A stretch of 26,132 nt of DNA, taken from a virus. Below are positions 3,030 to 10,863 of the stretch, piece after piece. Made by a program: the position numbers and the translations under genes. How positions within the stretch are numbered: the stretch's first letter is position 1; the number at the start of each line of letters is the position of its first letter. The DNA is taken from IMG/VR virus record IMGVR_UViG_3300045945_000195, positions 1-26,132 of that record, one strand, 5' to 3'. Below the pieces are notes generated by a model. It did no database searches. It worked only from the letters and a program-made list of their open reading frames with translations, and had not been told where the DNA came from.

Positions 3030-3283
3030 TGGCCGGGCAGACCATAAGTGGATGTCAAGGGGCGGCTGGCCCGGCCGCGGGAGCACAGCGTCTTTGGATG
3101 ACACACGTATACTGGCTCCCAGGTTGATAAGCGGCCGGGCAGGCAGTCATTGGTTGTCACAGTGGATTTGGCCCGGCCGTGGGAGCAATGCTGCAGTGGA
3201 TGACACATGGACACTGGCTCCCATTAGGTTGATAGGTGGCCGGGCAATCCCACTGCGGGTATCACCACTACCCCGGCCCGGCC
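3030..3283. repeat. paired-hairpin array 1: five hairpins with 30-nt loops
   Basis: Five hairpins: A 3031-3076 (8-bp stem), B 3079-3120 (6 bp), C 3132-3179 (9 bp), D 3180-3223 (7 bp), E 3238-3283 (8 bp). The loops are 3039-3068, 3085-3114, 3141-3170, 3187-3216 and 3246-3275, each exactly 30 nt. Loop positions 11-20 read TGGATGTCAA, TGGATGACAC, TGGTTGTCAC, TGGATGACAC and CGGGTATCAC. A, C and E share the stem GGCCGGGC; B and D share GGGAGC, so pairs A-B and C-D repeat with E as a lone first member. Each A/C/E hairpin follows a similar leader (GGTTGATAGGT-like). The repeat period is 102-105 bases. E lies inside the last codons of the IS110-like gene. The transcribed strand, if any, is not known. 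Confidence 0.92.
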
Positions 3284-4102
3284 TCGCCGCTTGCGCGGCA
3301 TCTCGTGCTCATCGCTGATCGGCAACTTGCGCCACGCCTGCCACAGATGTTTCAGGTAGCGCTTCATCACGTAGCGGACGGCATCCTGGCGCGCGTGCAT
3401 CGGCGTCCAGTCGGGATGCGTCACCGCCGTGTGCTTGCGCCGGCTGACATAGGCTTCGCCGTAGGGGCCCTTCGGGCGGCCGTAGTCGGTGCCGGATTTT
3501 TCCTTGCCTTCGACCTGCGCATTGACCAGCCACAATCCGATCTGGAACATCAGCGCATAGCGCGAAGCATTGAACGGGTGTGCGATCCATTCTTCCTTGG
3601 TGAGCGAACGCGGCCGCCAGGTCTCACGCTTCCAGCTCGATCCGGCGAGGCCGTCGTAGGGTGCGAAGCCGAGGCGGCTCCAGACCTTGCCGGGATTGGC
3701 GTAATTGGCGAGGTCGCCGGTCTCGGCGATGATGGTCCCGAGCCCGAGCGCGGCGGCGCCATGCACGCTCTCGACATAGGCATAGACCGGCAGCGCTGCG
3801 GCAGCCTGCGTCATCTGCCGCTCCATCTCGGTACGTTCTAAATCAATCGGCTCTCGCACCAGTTCGGTGCGGGTGACGATGCGGATCAACTCGGGATCGC
3901 CCTCGCCTTTGCGCGCAGCCGTCAGCAAGGCGAGCGCCTTCTTGTTCTCTGCTGCACGTTGCTTCTCATCGAGATCGGGCGACCAGGCAGTGAAGTTGAT
4001 GCGGACGTAGCTCTCCAGCGCGCGATCGATCTTCTGCTGCAGCTTCATCCAATATCGGCGCTTGCGATGCAGCGCCTTCAGGGTGTCGACGGTGGCAGTC
4101 AT
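3224..4102 (-). CDS. IS110-family (Transposase_20 domain) recombinase-like protein lacking the DEDD/RuvC domain, 292 aa
   Basis: Residues 105-260 match the Transposase_20 (PF02371-type) C-terminal half of IS110 transposases: 'VHGAAALGLGTIIAETGDL' at 113-131 corresponds to the PGxGxxTAxxLxAExGDL helix-hairpin-helix, 'LGFAPYDG' to AGLAP, 'GSS' at 154-156 to the region of the catalytic serine, 'NASRYALMFQIGL' to GNRYLRRAL, and 'AVRYVMKRYLKHLWQAW' to the terminal ARKLL helix. Residues 1-104 are charged and helical (coiled-coil-like) and show no DEDD/RuvC motifs, so it is not a complete transposase. It may act as a partner-dependent or nuclease-inactive RNA/DNA-binding protein. The last 20 residues are encoded by hairpin E. 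Hairpin arrays lie immediately upstream (4124-4435) and downstream. No IS ends are visible; it looks like a resident operon gene. Confidence 0.72.
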   Translation of the reverse strand: MTATVDTLKALHRKRRYWMKLQQKIDRALESYVRINFTAWSPDLDEKQRAAENKKALALLTAARKGEGDPELIRIVTRTELVREPIDLERTEMERQMTQAAAALPVYAYVESVHGAAALGLGTIIAETGDLANYANPGKVWSRLGFAPYDGLAGSSWKRETWRPRSLTKEEWIAHPFNASRYALMFQIGLWLVNAQVEGKEKSGTDYGRPKGPYGEAYVSRRKHTAVTHPDWTPMHARQDAVRYVMKRYLKHLWQAWRKLPISDEHEMPRKRRGRAGVVVIPAVGLPGHLST

Positions 4103-4123: not shown

Positions 4124-4435
4124 GCGGAGCGGGCAATGCAGCTTGGGGCTTCAACGTACGGCTGGCCCGCTCCGCTGGCGGCAACGGGTGTGTGGACGTC
4201 AGCGCAGCTCTGGCCGCCGAAAAGAATGCGGGCGAGACGAGCAAGGGCGCTTTGGAGATCACAATTCGATAGGCTCGTCTCGCTGGCGGCAGCGGGTGTA
4301 CTGGGTGTCACGCCGTCAACGGCCGCCAATTCTGAATGGATGGGACGAGCACCGGAAGATTGGAGACCACAGTCCGACGGGCTCGTCCCGCTGGCGGCAA
4401 ATGTCGTCTGGATGTCACGAGAGGACAGGCCGCCA
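4124..4435. repeat. paired-hairpin array 2: six hairpins with 30-nt loops
   Basis: Three pairs: F 4124-4175 (11-bp stem) with G 4176-4219; H 4232-4283 (11 bp) with I 4284-4328; J 4342-4389 (9 bp) with K 4392-4435. G, I and K share the stem (T)GGCGGC; F, H and J have different but fully paired stems (GCGGAGCGGGC, GCGAGACGAGC, GGGACGAGC). Loops are 4135-4164, 4183-4212, 4243-4272, 4291-4321 (31 nt), 4351-4380 and 4399-4428. Cores are GGGGCTTCAA, TGGACGTCAG, TGGAGATCAC, TGGGTGTCAC, TGGAGACCAC and TGGATGTCAC. The period is 108-110 bases; spacers of 12-13 bases share GAATG. It fills the 343-base gap between two operon genes, directly upstream of the IS110-like gene. Confidence 0.94.
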
Positions 4436-4445
4436 ATTCGCATGA

Positions 4446-5159
4446 TCACGCCTCCAGCTGCGGCTGCACTGCACCGCGCCGCATCTGCAAGGCGACGTTC
4501 TCCGCCGCCTTGCGCAGTACGTCGGGCGCTTGCTTGGTTGCGAGCGCGGCGTACTTGCGCAGCTGCGGTTCGGCAATCCACTTGCGCAGCATGATGGTGT
4601 CGTCGCTGATGACGCCATGCTGCAGGCACATCTCCAGGAAGCCGACATTGCGGGCCTCGTTGAGATTGCGCAGGAAGCCGCGCTGCAGCCGGTCCATTCC
4701 CTCCTGCTGCAATGCTCTGATCTCACGCATGCGGATGTTCTTGCCGAAGCCGAAGTCATCGAGCACGCTGGCTTCGATGCGCGCGACCGACTTCGCAGCT
4801 TCGCGTTCGCCTTCGGTGCGCGGACGCTGAACAGGTGCGGGGCGGGCACCTGTGGCTTGGGTTTCAACACTACTTTGGTCCGCCCCGCTGGCGACGACGG
4901 CAATACCTTTCTGGGCTTCACGGCTACGTTGGCCGTCGTCGATCGTACCGCGCATATCCGCCGCGGCGATCTGCAAGCAGTTCATCGCCACCGCGCGCAA
5001 CAATGCGCTGTTCTTTTCCATGTCGCGCACCAGCCAGGCGCAAGCGCGGTCCATGTTGCCCTTGGCCTTTTGCAGGTGCCCGACCGCAGTCGTGTAGGCT
5101 TGCGCCGTCTCGCCGGTTGCCTTGAAGGCATCGCCGAAGGTCTTGTGGGGTTTGCTCAT
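4446..5159 (-). CDS. hypothetical protein with an in-frame hairpin-pair insertion, 237 aa
   Basis: The start at 5159 has a strong ribosome site (AGGAGGA) about 3 bases upstream. No family is recognised. Residues 1-70 and 110-235 are helix-rich and charged. Between them, residues 73-107 are a low-complexity linker (A, S, Q, T, G, P) encoded by the two hairpins at 4837-4941. That insertion is 105 bases, exactly 35 codons, so the frame is kept. A phylogenetic comparison should show homologues lacking the linker if this is a true insertion. It is the gene just upstream of the array 2 / IS110-like pair and may be part of that system; this is inference. Confidence 0.65.
   Translation of the reverse strand: MSKPHKTFGDAFKATGETAQAYTTAVGHLQKAKGNMDRACAWLVRDMEKNSALLRAVAMNCLQIAAADMRGTIDDGQRSREAQKGIAVVASGADQSSVETQATGARPAPVQRPRTEGEREAAKSVARIEASVLDDFGFGKNIRMREIRALQQEGMDRLQRGFLRNLNEARNVGFLEMCLQHGVISDDTIMLRKWIAEPQLRKYAALATKQAPDVLRKAAENVALQMRRGAVQPQLEA
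4837..4941. repeat. paired hairpin 3 (two hairpins) inside a coding sequence
   Basis: Hairpin L1 covers 4837-4888 with an 11-bp stem (one G-T pair at 4846/4879) and a loop at 4848-4877. L2 covers 4892-4941 with a 10-bp stem (CGACGACGGC) and a loop at 4902-4931. Both loops are exactly 30 nt, with cores TGGGTTTCAA and TGGGCTTCAC at loop positions 11-20, starting with A and ending with G as in the other eleven. The pair is 105 bases long, a multiple of three, and lies in frame within the gene at 4446-5159. Confidence 0.9.
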
Positions 5160-5167
5160 GTATCCTC

Positions 5168-5686
5168 CTATGCCGCCGTCCCGGCATTGCTCTTCAGATC
5201 CTCGACGGTGACGCCGAGCTTGGCGGCGAGCACGTCGATCACGGCTTGCTTGCTCAATTGGAATTCGCGGCCGGACATCGCCGACACTGCCTGTGAGCGC
5301 GGGATGTACTGGCGCACGATGCGCGGATCGTCCGCGTCGAACTCGATGCGCGAATAGTCGTGGCCGTCGCGCAGATAGCGCGCGACGCGCATCGCCTCCT
5401 GGCGGTTGGTGGCGCGGTACTCGCGCGTGTCACGAAAGGCGGTGTGCGTCAGCGCCCAGGCGCGCAGCTCCTCCGGCGACTGGAATTGCGGACCGTCTTC
5501 CGGCAAGTTCTGCCAGGCCTCGTGGATGATGGCGAAGAAGTGGCGGTGACTGTCCCAGCTGCGCGGCTCGACAGCCTCCAGGCGATAGACGCGACCGATC
5601 TGAAATTGCTTCTCCGCCAGGCGGCGATAGTAGGGTGTCGGCTCGAAACCTTCGCCGTTCCAGATGTACAACAACGGCGCGCTCAT
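5168..5686 (-). CDS. hypothetical phage protein, 172 aa
   Basis: The ATG at 5686 overlaps the end of the exonuclease gene by four bases (TCAT). Residues 35-85 contain 'PRSWDSHRHFFAIIHEAWQNLPED' followed by a predicted helix (PEELRAWALTH). This pattern resembles small phage proteins found beside recombination genes (NinB or DUF1367-like layouts). I cannot assign the family with certainty. The middle has 'RYLRDGHDYSRIEFD', and the C-terminus carries a putative helix-turn-helix-like segment (KQAVIDVLAAKLGVTVEDL). Position next to YqaJ and ERF suggests a role in recombination or replication. Confidence 0.6.
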   Translation of the reverse strand: MSAPLLYIWNGEGFEPTPYYRRLAEKQFQIGRVYRLEAVEPRSWDSHRHFFAIIHEAWQNLPEDGPQFQSPEELRAWALTHTAFRDTREYRATNRQEAMRVARYLRDGHDYSRIEFDADDPRIVRQYIPRSQAVSAMSGREFQLSKQAVIDVLAAKLGVTVEDLKSNAGTAA

Positions 5687-6315
5687 GCTGCAGCCTGCTG
5701 ATCCATGGCTTCGAACGCAGCGACGTCACGAGCCACGTCGTCGAGAAAATCACGGGCTTGCTTTTCCATCGTTGCAATCAGCGCATCGTCGCGATGGAAG
5801 CGCTTGATGTAGAGCTGCGCCCGCGCCGGCAAGCGATCGTCGAAGCTGACAAAGTCGCACCATTGCCGGCCGGTGCAGGCGATCTGCCACAGCATTTGCA
5901 GTGCGTACTCATTCGGCACCTTGGCGCGGCCGCGCAGCCACTTGAGATGAACGTGCGTGTCGGGACATTTGAATTCGACGAGGCCGTCATCGCCGACAAG
6001 ACCGTCCGGCGAGCATCCCGACATTTCGATCGTCGGGTGTGGGATGAAACCGACTTCGACGACATCGACGTCGCAGCGGAAGGCATAGGCGGCGCGGGCG
6101 CGCGCTTCCAGCATCGAGCCGCGCTCCATCGCGGCGGAGCGATATTGCTCGTAGGGCAGACCGGTGAGCCGCTCGGCGACGAGTTCTCCCCAGTAGCGCT
6201 CGCGCGATGCGCCCCAGCCGCCGCCCTTCACCGTGGCGACGGCATCGGCGAAGCGCGAGGCGGTGAGCTTGCCGACGCGCGCGAGCAGCCATTCCTGCGT
6301 GCGCTGTTCACTCAT
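5683..6315 (-). CDS. YqaJ-like viral recombinase / alkaline exonuclease, 210 aa
   Basis: The protein matches the YqaJ/lambda-Exo nuclease family. It begins with the typical 'RTQEWLLARVGKLTASRFADAV' region (residues 5-26), has E70 in 'RGSMLEARAR', and carries the nuclease core 'SPDGLVGDDGLVEFKCP' with D104, E114 and K116 as likely metal and catalytic residues. A Q140 helix follows (YALQMLWQIACTG). Length is normal for the family. It would degrade one strand of double-stranded ends so that the ERF protein can anneal the exposed strand. It lies three genes downstream of ERF in the same overlapping operon. Confidence 0.88.
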   Translation of the reverse strand: MSEQRTQEWLLARVGKLTASRFADAVATVKGGGWGASRERYWGELVAERLTGLPYEQYRSAAMERGSMLEARARAAYAFRCDVDVVEVGFIPHPTIEMSGCSPDGLVGDDGLVEFKCPDTHVHLKWLRGRAKVPNEYALQMLWQIACTGRQWCDFVSFDDRLPARAQLYIKRFHRDDALIATMEKQARDFLDDVARDVAAFEAMDQQAAA

Positions 6316-6741: not shown

Positions 6742-7529
6742 GCTTCTTTCTTCGATGGGTTCTTCTTGAGTTCGAGGTTGTATTTTGCGTCGGCGAAATC
6801 GCTGGCGCGCAGGTCGGCGACCTTGTCGATGCCGAAGTAGGCGCAGAATTTTCCGATGTCCTGGCCGACGTGGGCGATGAGCTGCTGCAGCTCGTCGAGC
6901 TGCTCGGGATTGATCGCTGCGGTGTCGGCGCTGGTCGCCTGCGCGTCATCGTCATCGGCGGCGGCGAGCCCGAGCGCAGCCTTGAGCGTATAGCGCGACA
7001 GGTAGGTCACCGCGGAGCCGATCGCCTGGTGCTTGTTCTTGGCGCCGCTGTCGTCGGGCGGGCCGGAGAGGCTGTTCTCCTCGCTGTGGCCCTCGCGATG
7101 GGAGATGATGCAGGTGACCGTGATCGGCTCGCCCGGCGGGTTGTGGGTGCGGAAGCGATAGGAGAGACCGTGACGGCCGAGCGGCTCGTCGATGGCGGAG
7201 GCGATCGCCGCCATATCCTCGTGCCGGTAGGTGGTGCGGGCGGCGCCGGGTTTGCGGCTGTCGAAGCCGACCTTCTTCGACTTCAGGATGGTCGGCAGGT
7301 CGGCCTTGGCGGCGGCGATGGCGGCATCGTAGGCACGCCGCGCGGCGTTTCTTTCGAAGCGCTCCTGCAGACCCATCAGCCGTTCGAGAATGTCGATGGA
7401 GGCGCCGCCGGCGACTGCCTGTTGCAGTAGCGCCAGCGGCGTGAGCGACGTCTCGGTCATCACCGGTTGCAGTGTGTTGGTCGGCTTGCGTCGCTTTCCT
7501 GGGGTCGACGCGACCTCGATGTCACTCAT
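6738..7529 (-). CDS. erf: ERF-family single-strand annealing protein, 263 aa
   Basis: ERF proteins (first known from phage P22) anneal complementary single strands during phage recombination. The family signature is clear: a helical N-terminal part with 'LQERFERNAARRAYDAAIAAAKADLP' (55-79), 'GAARTTYRHEDMAAIASAIDEPLGRHGLSY' around 95-124, and 'AIGSAVTYLSRYTLKAALGL' (169-188) followed by an acidic DDDD stretch. The C-terminal tail is more variable. Length is usual for the family. The gene overlaps both neighbours by four bases and pairs functionally with the YqaJ exonuclease. Confidence 0.92.
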   Translation of the reverse strand: MSDIEVASTPGKRRKPTNTLQPVMTETSLTPLALLQQAVAGGASIDILERLMGLQERFERNAARRAYDAAIAAAKADLPTILKSKKVGFDSRKPGAARTTYRHEDMAAIASAIDEPLGRHGLSYRFRTHNPPGEPITVTCIISHREGHSEENSLSGPPDDSGAKNKHQAIGSAVTYLSRYTLKAALGLAAADDDDAQATSADTAAINPEQLDELQQLIAHVGQDIGKFCAYFGIDKVADLRASDFADAKYNLELKKNPSKKEA

Positions 7530-7962: not shown

Positions 7963-8010
7963 GCCCCAGCCGTTGGGGTGCATGACGCGAGACGCAGCAA
8001 CGGCTGGGGC
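7963..8010 (-). terminator. leader hairpin / possible attenuator of the left operon
   Basis: A perfect 13-bp inverted repeat (7963-7975 with 7998-8010, GCCCCAGCCGTTG) encloses 22 bases. Read leftward, it is followed by CTTTTCC, a weak U-run. Within the same bases, CCCCA/TGGGG at 7964-7978 can form a smaller competing hairpin. It sits between the leftward promoter and the first ATG at 7939, so it could terminate transcripts early or act as an antitermination or regulatory element. It does not share the loop core of the paired-hairpin family. Confidence 0.6.
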
Positions 8011-8942: not shown

Positions 8943-9188
8943 ATGCCCAACCGCCGCCGCCGCCAGCACCTCGATCCGGCCACCCGCATCATCGCCCTCT
9001 TCGGCGGCGCCAGGCGGGTGTCGGCCATGATCAACGTCTCCTCCGCCGCACCCTATCTGTGGCGCTACGGCCGCGAGTACGGCGGCACTGGCGGCGCCAT
9101 CCCGGCGAAGCATCATCGCGCCCTGTTGGCCTGGGCGAGAGCCGAAGGCATCCCGCTCACCGCCGACGACCTGTTGCCGCCGGACTGA
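8943..9188 (+). CDS. Cro/CII-like DNA-binding protein, 81 aa
   Basis: This is the first rightward gene after the control region, divergent from the repressor. It is small and basic at the N-terminus. Residues 15-45 (RIIALFGGARRVSAMINVSSAAPYLWRYG) resemble the YdaS/Cro type of helix-turn-helix, where 'GG' starts helix one and 'V..S...P..W' marks the recognition helix. It is followed by 'IPAKHHRALLAWARAEGI', the usual 'IP..H...LL..A...GI' ending of such regulators. The expected role is repression of the lysogeny promoter and tuning of early transcription. Confidence 0.72.
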   Translation: MPNRRRRQHLDPATRIIALFGGARRVSAMINVSSAAPYLWRYGREYGGTGGAIPAKHHRALLAWARAEGIPLTADDLLPPD

Positions 9189-9192
9189 CCTC

Positions 9193-9693
9193 GTGCCCGG
9201 CCCAGGGGGCAATGATTACTGGACATCGCAACGGGTAGCAGCGTTGCGGAGCATGGTCGGCGAGGGGCTGTCCGCCGGCAAGATCGCCGCCGCGCTCAAT
9301 GCCGTGGCGCAAGTGCACGTCACCCGCTGTGCGGTGATCGGCAAGATCCACCGCCTGCATCTGCGCGACGCTTGGCGCCGCACCGTGCGGTCGCTGCCGA
9401 AGCCGCCTCGACGCCCACGCCAGCGCCCACGCAAGGTGGTGGCCGCGAACGGTGCGCAGCAGGCCGTCGTGAAGGTCCGCTCCAAGGTGAGGCTGCCGCC
9501 GACGCCGGAGCCGGTGCCGCCACCGCCTGACCACATGCAGGCGCGGCATGGCCTGCTCGCGCTCGGCCATGGCGACTGCCGCTGGCCGTACAGCGATCCG
9601 CGTGCGGCGGACTTTCGCTTCTGCGGCAAGCCGGCACTGCCGGACCGGCCCTATTGCGCGGCGCACGAGCGGCGCGCGCATGCGCGGGGGTGA
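9193..9693 (+). CDS. GcrA-family cell-cycle regulator homologue, 166 aa
   Basis: GcrA is an alphaproteobacterial transcription factor that works with sigma-70 RNA polymerase at CcrM-methylated promoters. Residues 8-55 match its N-terminal helix-turn-helix (YWTSQRVAALRSMVGEGLSAGKIAAALN ... TRCAVIGKIHRLHL), and residues 129-158 match its C-terminal zinc module (CRWPYSDP ... FCGKPALPDRPYCAAH; C129, C144, C155, H158). A proline- and arginine-rich linker lies between. It uses a GTG start at 9193, five bases after cro. A phage copy could redirect host cell-cycle promoters or control late phage promoters; both are inference. Confidence 0.88.
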   Translation: MPGPGGNDYWTSQRVAALRSMVGEGLSAGKIAAALNAVAQVHVTRCAVIGKIHRLHLRDAWRRTVRSLPKPPRRPRQRPRKVVAANGAQQAVVKVRSKVRLPPTPEPVPPPPDHMQARHGLLALGHGDCRWPYSDPRAADFRFCGKPALPDRPYCAAHERRAHARG

Positions 9694-9985: not shown

Positions 9986-10863
9986 AATGGTTTCGTTGGT
10001 ATCGGGGGACTGTCGAGCGAGCCAAGTTTCGCATCATTGCCGATCGCGCGTCGTCTCCCGGCCCAGGTGGCGGCTCGGTGCATATGGAACGTGTCGATGG
10101 GGCAGTCTTCACCACCGATGTTCTGGCTGTATGGGTAACGGTTCTCGAAGACGCCGGTAACGCGTCTCATTGGGGTTACGTAACGCGTTACGCGCGTGAC
10201 ATTGCCACGATGCTTGATCTCGGTGTGTCGGAGGTCGAGGCAATTTTGGCCGGCATGGTCGCCGAGGAGATGATCGAAAGCGGCGGCAAGCGTGGTCATT
10301 ATCACATCGTAAATTGGGAGAAATATCAATTCACTAGCGACACCGATCCAACGCGAGCAGAACGGCAAAAACGGTTCAGGCAGCGACGGACGCGTAACGC
10401 GTTACGCGACGGGCCTGTAACGCGTACAGATACAGATCTAGATCCTGTAGATCCTAGCGGATCTACAGCCGACGCAGGCGTCGGCGCTGCCGCCCTCTTC
10501 GACAATGTCGAGGTCATCGACGAAGACCCGCAAGCCAAGCTGTTCCGGGTTGGCAAAACCATCCTGGTGAGCTTCGGCGTCGCCGAGAAACGCACCGGCG
10601 CGCTGCTCGGCATGTGGCTCAAGTCCCGCAACGATCCAGTCGGGCTCCTCGCCGCCATCAAGTTTGCCCGCGACCAGAACGTCGTCGACCCGGTGGCGTA
10701 CGTTTCCGCAATGCTGAAGGAAGGGAAGGCAAATGGACAAAAATCTGCCGGCGATCGGGCACACGAGCTTGCCGAAGAGTGGCGACGACGGGAGCGTGAC
10801 GCGCAGGTTTCAGGAACGGCTGACAATGCCCGAGGCACTCGACCTGGTCGGCAAGCTGATTAA
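9982..10863 (+). CDS. phage replication initiator-like protein (winged-helix N-terminus), 293 aa
   Basis: Residues 1-120 match the N-terminal half of phage replisome organisers: 'MKWFRWYRGT', then 'VTRYARDIATMLDLGVSEVEAILAGMVAEEMIE' (winged helix) and 'YHIVNWEKYQFTSDTDPTRAERQKRFRQRR', the usual W-E-K-x-Q-x-x-S-D segment. A low-complexity linker (about 135-170) follows, then a charged helical C-terminal domain of unknown fold. The gene contains iteron-like palindromes and a perfect hairpin (10135-10468), so it probably carries its own origin, as lambda O does. It overlaps its neighbours on both sides. Confidence 0.72.
   Translation: MKWFRWYRGTVERAKFRIIADRASSPGPGGGSVHMERVDGAVFTTDVLAVWVTVLEDAGNASHWGYVTRYARDIATMLDLGVSEVEAILAGMVAEEMIESGGKRGHYHIVNWEKYQFTSDTDPTRAERQKRFRQRRTRNALRDGPVTRTDTDLDPVDPSGSTADAGVGAAALFDNVEVIDEDPQAKLFRVGKTILVSFGVAEKRTGALLGMWLKSRNDPVGLLAAIKFARDQNVVDPVAYVSAMLKEGKANGQKSAGDRAHELAEEWRRRERDAQVSGTADNARGTRPGRQAD
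10135..10468. other. candidate replication origin inside the initiator gene
   Basis: GTAACGCG-type repeats occur in two clusters: 10157-10164 and the 12-bp palindrome GTAACGCGTTAC at 10180-10191, then the same palindrome at 10394-10405 and GTAACGCGTAC at 10417-10427. A GGTAACGG half-match lies at 10135. Just after the second cluster, CTGTAGATCC-TAGC-GGATCTACAG (10445-10468) is a perfect 10-bp hairpin with a 4-base loop in a locally AT-richer stretch. Repeats plus a dyad within an initiator gene is the lambda ori layout. Confidence 0.55.

Follow-up and report, generated by a model that had tools for sequence, protein, structure and literature searches.

Probable guide-RNA units of a phage-borne stem-loop TIGR-Tas system inside the coding sequence of a companion gene

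RNA-guided systems normally keep their guide RNAs in non-coding arrays. We describe a phage locus in which two hairpin units, L (4837–4888) and M (4892–4941), lie in frame inside a gene, the open reading frame (ORF) ORF237 (4446–5159), directly upstream of tasA (3224–4102); both genes and both units are on the minus strand. The locus is part of a 26-kb virus record, positions 1–26,132 of IMGVR_UViG_3300045945_000195, hereafter called the window. The closest described systems are TIGR-Tas stem-loop arrays with TasA, dual spacers of 8–12 nucleotides (nt) and palindromic stems, with an example from the gut of Peromyscus leucopus; boxes C and D of TIGR units are binding sites of the Nop domain (Faure et al. 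2025, PMC12045711). The L/M pair is very probably two guide-RNA units of such a system, comprising a nuclease-less TasA, the companion ORF237 and 13 units, in which the same DNA is read as a protein linker and as a guide array.

The window fits every anatomical feature of TIGR-Tas that could be tested. The published stem-loop arrays resemble the locus in the nuclease-less Tas protein, the two-spacer units between boxes C and D, the palindromic stems, the several sub-arrays around tas and the location in a mobile element. They differ in that units lie here in frame within the conserved gene upstream of tasA, and within tasA itself in relatives, and in that the loop is fixed here at 30 nt and the spacers at 9 nt. 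With the dual-repeat TIGR-Tas arrays (TasR, TasH, and TasA with tasParB) the locus shares UG and CCA boxes at the edge and in the loop, 9-nt spacers and homologous Tas proteins, but variable stems replace the edge repeats and the companion had no ParB match in Pfam. IS110/IS621 elements with a bridge RNA likewise use split guides, and their Nop-like RNA-binding domain is related to the one here; unlike them, the locus has many units and lacks both a DEDD domain and element ends. Archaeal and eukaryotic box C/D small nucleolar RNAs with Nop5/56/58 share the fold of the binding domain and the box C/D plan, but no fibrillarin or L7Ae partner was seen here; this comparison covered the Nop-domain fold only, and a k-turn was not looked for. 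TIGR-Tas, an RNA-guided system described only recently, is already known, and what is new are the in-gene arrays and the companion family, neither of which is described in the main text of PMC12045711 as available to us.

Units inside ORF237 and related genes

Thirteen hairpins of one common plan occur in three clusters between 3031 and 4941, in the early region of the phage. On the minus strand, a GC-rich stem closes a 30-nt loop, CA-N9-UG-N4-CCA-N9-U (31 nt in one unit). Each unit holds two 9-nt spacers between box C (CCA) and box D (UG), and palindromic stems of 6–14 base pairs (bp), with G-U pairs tolerated on the tas strand, stand in place of edge repeats. All 13 are on the same strand as tasA and ORF237: five lie beyond the end of tasA or overlap it, six lie between the two genes and two, L and M, within ORF237. 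A search of Rfam matched no family.

The 105-nt L/M pair runs from the last base of codon 73 through codon 108 of ORF237 and is free of stop codons. Unit M (spacer A ACGTAGCCG, spacer B GAAAGGTAT) has a perfect 10-bp stem and a 30-nt loop; in unit L (spacer A AAGTAGTGT, spacer B AGCCACAGG), box D falls on codon position 3. Codon use in ORF237 was phage-like on both sides of the pair and not within it, with codon scores of +0.31 before, −0.08 inside and +0.34 after the pair, and a GC content at third codon positions of 0.85, 0.56 and 0.82, respectively. By its codon bias, and by a family of homologues at the same position in 77 loci, ORF237 is a genuine gene, and the in-frame hairpin pair reported by the first-pass annotation is indeed present. 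The structural model of ORF237 consisted of two helical domains joined by a linker, approximately residues 73–107, that is encoded by units M and L. That annotation had called the linker low in complexity; it is better described as predicted disordered, with a predicted local distance difference test (pLDDT) score below 50 for most of residues 75–98. Synonymous recoding of the protein still yielded a hairpin with a stem of at least 9 bp and a 30-nt loop in 159 of 2000 trials, which makes this a weak test. One hairpin in ORF237 is therefore not decisive, and the evidence from the family decides.

Relatives of tasA were found on 80 viral contigs, in two cellular genomes and in one isolate phage; the two cellular relatives, in a Hyphomicrobium metagenome-assembled genome and in Phycocomes zhengii, were the only ones in the cellular genome collection, and plasmids contained none. 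A profile iterated from two sequences, ORF237 and its relative in locus L021, without use of genome position, identified, in 77 loci, a relative of ORF237 encoded immediately upstream of tasA. The L021 homologue occupies the same position; its alignment to ORF237 extends to either side of the linker and most of residues 73–107 are missing from it, and linker length across companions ranged from 8 to 141 amino acids. Thus, the comparison of homologues suggested by the first-pass annotation yielded no conserved amino acid sequence at these residues. Pfam and PHROGs searches with ORF237 and 59 relatives gave weak, scattered matches and no consistent family, and comparison of the companion fold gave no convincing match (best Z score 7, for Cdc37, within the helical background). 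Direct BLASTP of ORF237 against ORF213 of locus L003 gave no match, although the iterated profile later united both, and tblastn of ORF237 against the phage collection gave none. The companion is a conserved, undescribed protein family.

Approximately 20 companion genes hold one to five units each, all in frame and, with a single weak exception, in the central linker. Box D was at the same codon position in 35 of the 37 companion-embedded units. Since free units are about equally open in the chosen frame (85%) and in a second frame (88%), this phase preference is not due to stop avoidance; the chosen phase would yield a polar linker of Gln/His, Asp/Glu/Gly, Gln/His and Ala/Gly. Internal units also occur inside tasA in several loci. 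On the tasA tree, the embedding trait was scattered, with approximately 15 changes, at least eight of them on well-supported branches. These observations support the earlier proposal that the elements spread or persist inside genes without breaking the frame. In locus L003, an apparent unit inside the companion (5202–5243) was discounted for its weak 6-bp stem and its position off phase. The same locus has a third, unrelated ORF (9062–9643) with one intact unit (9398–9445, in the same codon phase) and one degenerate unit, and further unit pairs lie there between other genes, at 8943–9039 and 10017–10114.

The isolate among the relatives is Rhizobium phage RHph_X2_25 (MW960032.1:24258–25776; host Sinorhizobium americanum), which has a similar layout. 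Three units, one of which fits the plan loosely, lie within the 5′ part of its deposited coding sequence QWY83253.1. Box D of this phage is CG, not UG, in loop and edge alike.

The two constraints on embedded units were compared in four related loci (L049, L052, L053 and L058) that have units both in the companion and midway along tasA. Pairwise identity was 0.78–0.79 in flanking codons, 0.86–0.89 in stems and 0.89–0.91 in boxes, and it fell to the random level (0.24–0.25) in spacers. At third codon positions, identity rose from 0.58 in the flanks to 0.80 in stems and 1.00 in boxes; the pairs are non-independent, and the direction of the difference therefore outweighs its P value. Judged from these alignments, the RNA plan is kept and the putative guides are replaced inside the coding sequence of relatives. 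The embedded sequences appear to serve as message and as guide array at once, and the suggestion that the coding region may double as a source of guides is well supported. The tasA genes of loci L018 and L019 are 96% identical; in most of the units that align between the two loci, the stems and boxes agree and the spacers do not, and three neighbouring units are the same but for one spacer base. This pattern points to exchange or replacement of whole units, for which homologous recombination would be the simplest cause. Two L018 units with identical spacers flank tasA (5925–5976 and 6994–7045), a recent unit duplication. The mobility that had been proposed for the elements applies in the sense of array units that are exchanged and duplicated, but not in the sense of a self-mobile element.

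Unit statistics, TasA and the surrounding array

The 81 loci contained 391 perfect hairpins whose loop was exactly 30 nt long, against approximately 25 at neighbouring loop lengths and 16 in shuffled sequence. In an unbiased set of 250 hairpins, selected for a stem of at least 9 bp and a 30-nt loop with no motif required, CA-N9-UG-N4-CCA-N9-U was recovered at 79–98% per box position, and the nine-base spacers were flat. An initial, overly permissive scan for units (1715 vs 1432) gave way to a strict one; over approximately 0.95 Mb, the strict motif occurred 537 times in the orientation of tas and 14 times in the opposite orientation. Single non-Watson-Crick pairs in the stems of the family were G-U in 74 cases and A-C in 10. 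By both comparisons, the tas strand, which is also the coding strand of ORF237, is the RNA strand. The second base of box C covaried between stem edge and loop (C/C 489, G/G 44, discordant 4).

The 292-residue product of tasA is TasA, a nuclease-less Nop-domain Tas protein. Its model (mean pLDDT 92, from an alignment of 64 relatives) is filled from residue 1 by a coiled coil and a Nop-like RNA-binding domain, with no nuclease domain, and aligns to TasR from residue 112 and to TasH from residues 64–66. Against solved structures, the family profile matched TasR (9mty, E = 2.2e-16) and TasH (21kl, E = 7.7e-9), and in the fold ranking TasH and TasR came first (Z 15–16), followed by IS621 and ISCro4 (13–14) and Nop proteins (7–9). 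The first-pass annotation had taken the protein for IS110-like. A match to Transposase_20 was weak and below the cut-off, phrog 'transposase' matches were also weak, and the IS110 identity was rejected because the DEDD nuclease domain is absent and TasR and TasH are closer in sequence and fold. Unit E (3238–3283) overlaps the 3′ end of tasA and, as had been stated for the last residues of this protein, encodes part of its C-terminus, approximately residues 273–288 in a disordered tail (pLDDT approximately 44–67).

The remaining units, all on the minus strand, are A (3031–3076), B (3079–3120), C (3132–3179) and D (3180–3223) in the array downstream of tasA, and F (4124–4175), G (4177–4218), H (4232–4283), I (4284–4328, the unit with the 31-nt loop), J (4342–4389) and K (4392–4435) in the array between ORF237 and tasA. 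Across 3031–3223 and 4124–4435, unit pairs of two stem families alternate with a period of approximately 102–108 nt, and look as if the pair were the unit of duplication. The minus strand of the window carries phage early genes, among them RecE-like exonuclease, NinB-like and Erf-like proteins, and the plus strand carries head genes. Just upstream of the early gene block, a lone 13-bp hairpin without the box plan (GCCCCAGCCGTTG...CAACGGCTGGGGC) lies at 7963–8010.

Explanations for the embedded units

If the L/M pair belongs to a TIGR-Tas guide array, a single polycistronic early transcript would serve both as message and as the precursor of the guides (pre-tigRNA). By analogy with the published system, the transcript would be processed into stem-loop guides, a TasA dimer would sit on the loop and edge boxes of the processed stem-loop, and spacer A would pair with one strand of an 18-bp target and spacer B with the other; the nuclease-less TasA may bind, bend or block this target without cutting it. 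Release of an embedded unit would destroy that copy of the companion message, so that guide and protein output would be traded off per transcript. New units may reach the linkers through recombination that duplicates and exchanges array units, which linkers can accommodate.

Several points weigh against this explanation. Unit L carries a single A-C mismatch, at the second stem pair on the minus (message) strand, and the covariation of box D from edge to loop is loose (U/U 468, C/C 13, discordant 56). The window has a sole near-identical relative (L002), and spacer turnover was therefore measured in relatives, not at the exact L/M pair. The companion profile was seeded by two sequences only, though its matches fall just upstream of tas, and the third-position statistics share the non-independence of the four-locus pairs. 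Translation of the ORF237 linker and processing of the embedded units are predicted. In the search for targets within the loci, true spacer pairs matched no better than shuffled pairs, and two target scans of the viral collection returned unrelated matches only: unit M had five, confined to a single unrelated group of phages, and unit L had one. The exact 18-nt predicted target of unit M is present at one conserved site in L088–L092, which are related high-GC phage contigs, and is not separable from chance.

The strongest alternative accepts what the units are and disputes only whether their embedding has a function. Genuine TIGR units may land in linkers and gene ends through insertion tolerance, dual coding then merely avoiding damage, and we give this account an even chance. 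The position of units in disordered linkers and protein tails, their scattered occurrence on the tree and the location of 415 of 526 units outside both companion and tasA fit such tolerance, but the single phase of nearly all companion units, despite a second phase about equally stop-free, and the units internal to tasA do not. Even so, selection acting solely on the protein linker could account for both of the latter. That the embedded arrays are instead a selected device, a built-in switch by which a message is either translated or cut into guides, and that the companion is an undescribed functional partner of stem-loop TasA, is a tentative proposal that we consider possible but doubtful.

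The hairpins might also be regulatory, with TasA binding the message and repressing translation of the companion (and its own) while no guides are made. The role of TIGR boxes C and D as Nop-domain binding sites, described in PMC12045711, and the overlap of units with both genes are compatible with this; a pure operator, however, needs no variable spacers, and embedded spacers are at random identity, like those of free units, which leaves the operator account unlikely. It is highly improbable that a hypervariable protein linker is the selected trait and the hairpins its mere vehicle: spacer turnover freely alters the amino acids, but third positions are conserved in stems and boxes relative to the flanks, and most companions have no unit at all. 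Least probable of all, an IS110-type transposon with bridge RNAs, the pair being target-binding and donor-binding loops, would account for the weak transposase matches, the two-loop arrangement and the fold likeness to IS621, but was rejected because the DEDD domain is absent, and it also sits poorly with 13 units instead of one bridge RNA, the lack of visible element ends and the closer TasR and TasH.

Significance of in-gene guide arrays

For annotation, gene callers and array finders that assume non-coding arrays will miss in-gene units. For the biology of stem-loop TIGR-Tas, the guide-array explanation offers a direct handle on three questions that the TIGR-Tas paper leaves open, namely how old spacers give way to new ones, how units are processed and which role the nuclease-less TasA has, and it supplies a conserved partner gene and, in RHph_X2_25, a sequenced isolate phage of similar layout. 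Across many phage lineages, and in two different genes, a single stretch of bases appears to specify both a protein linker and changeable guides.
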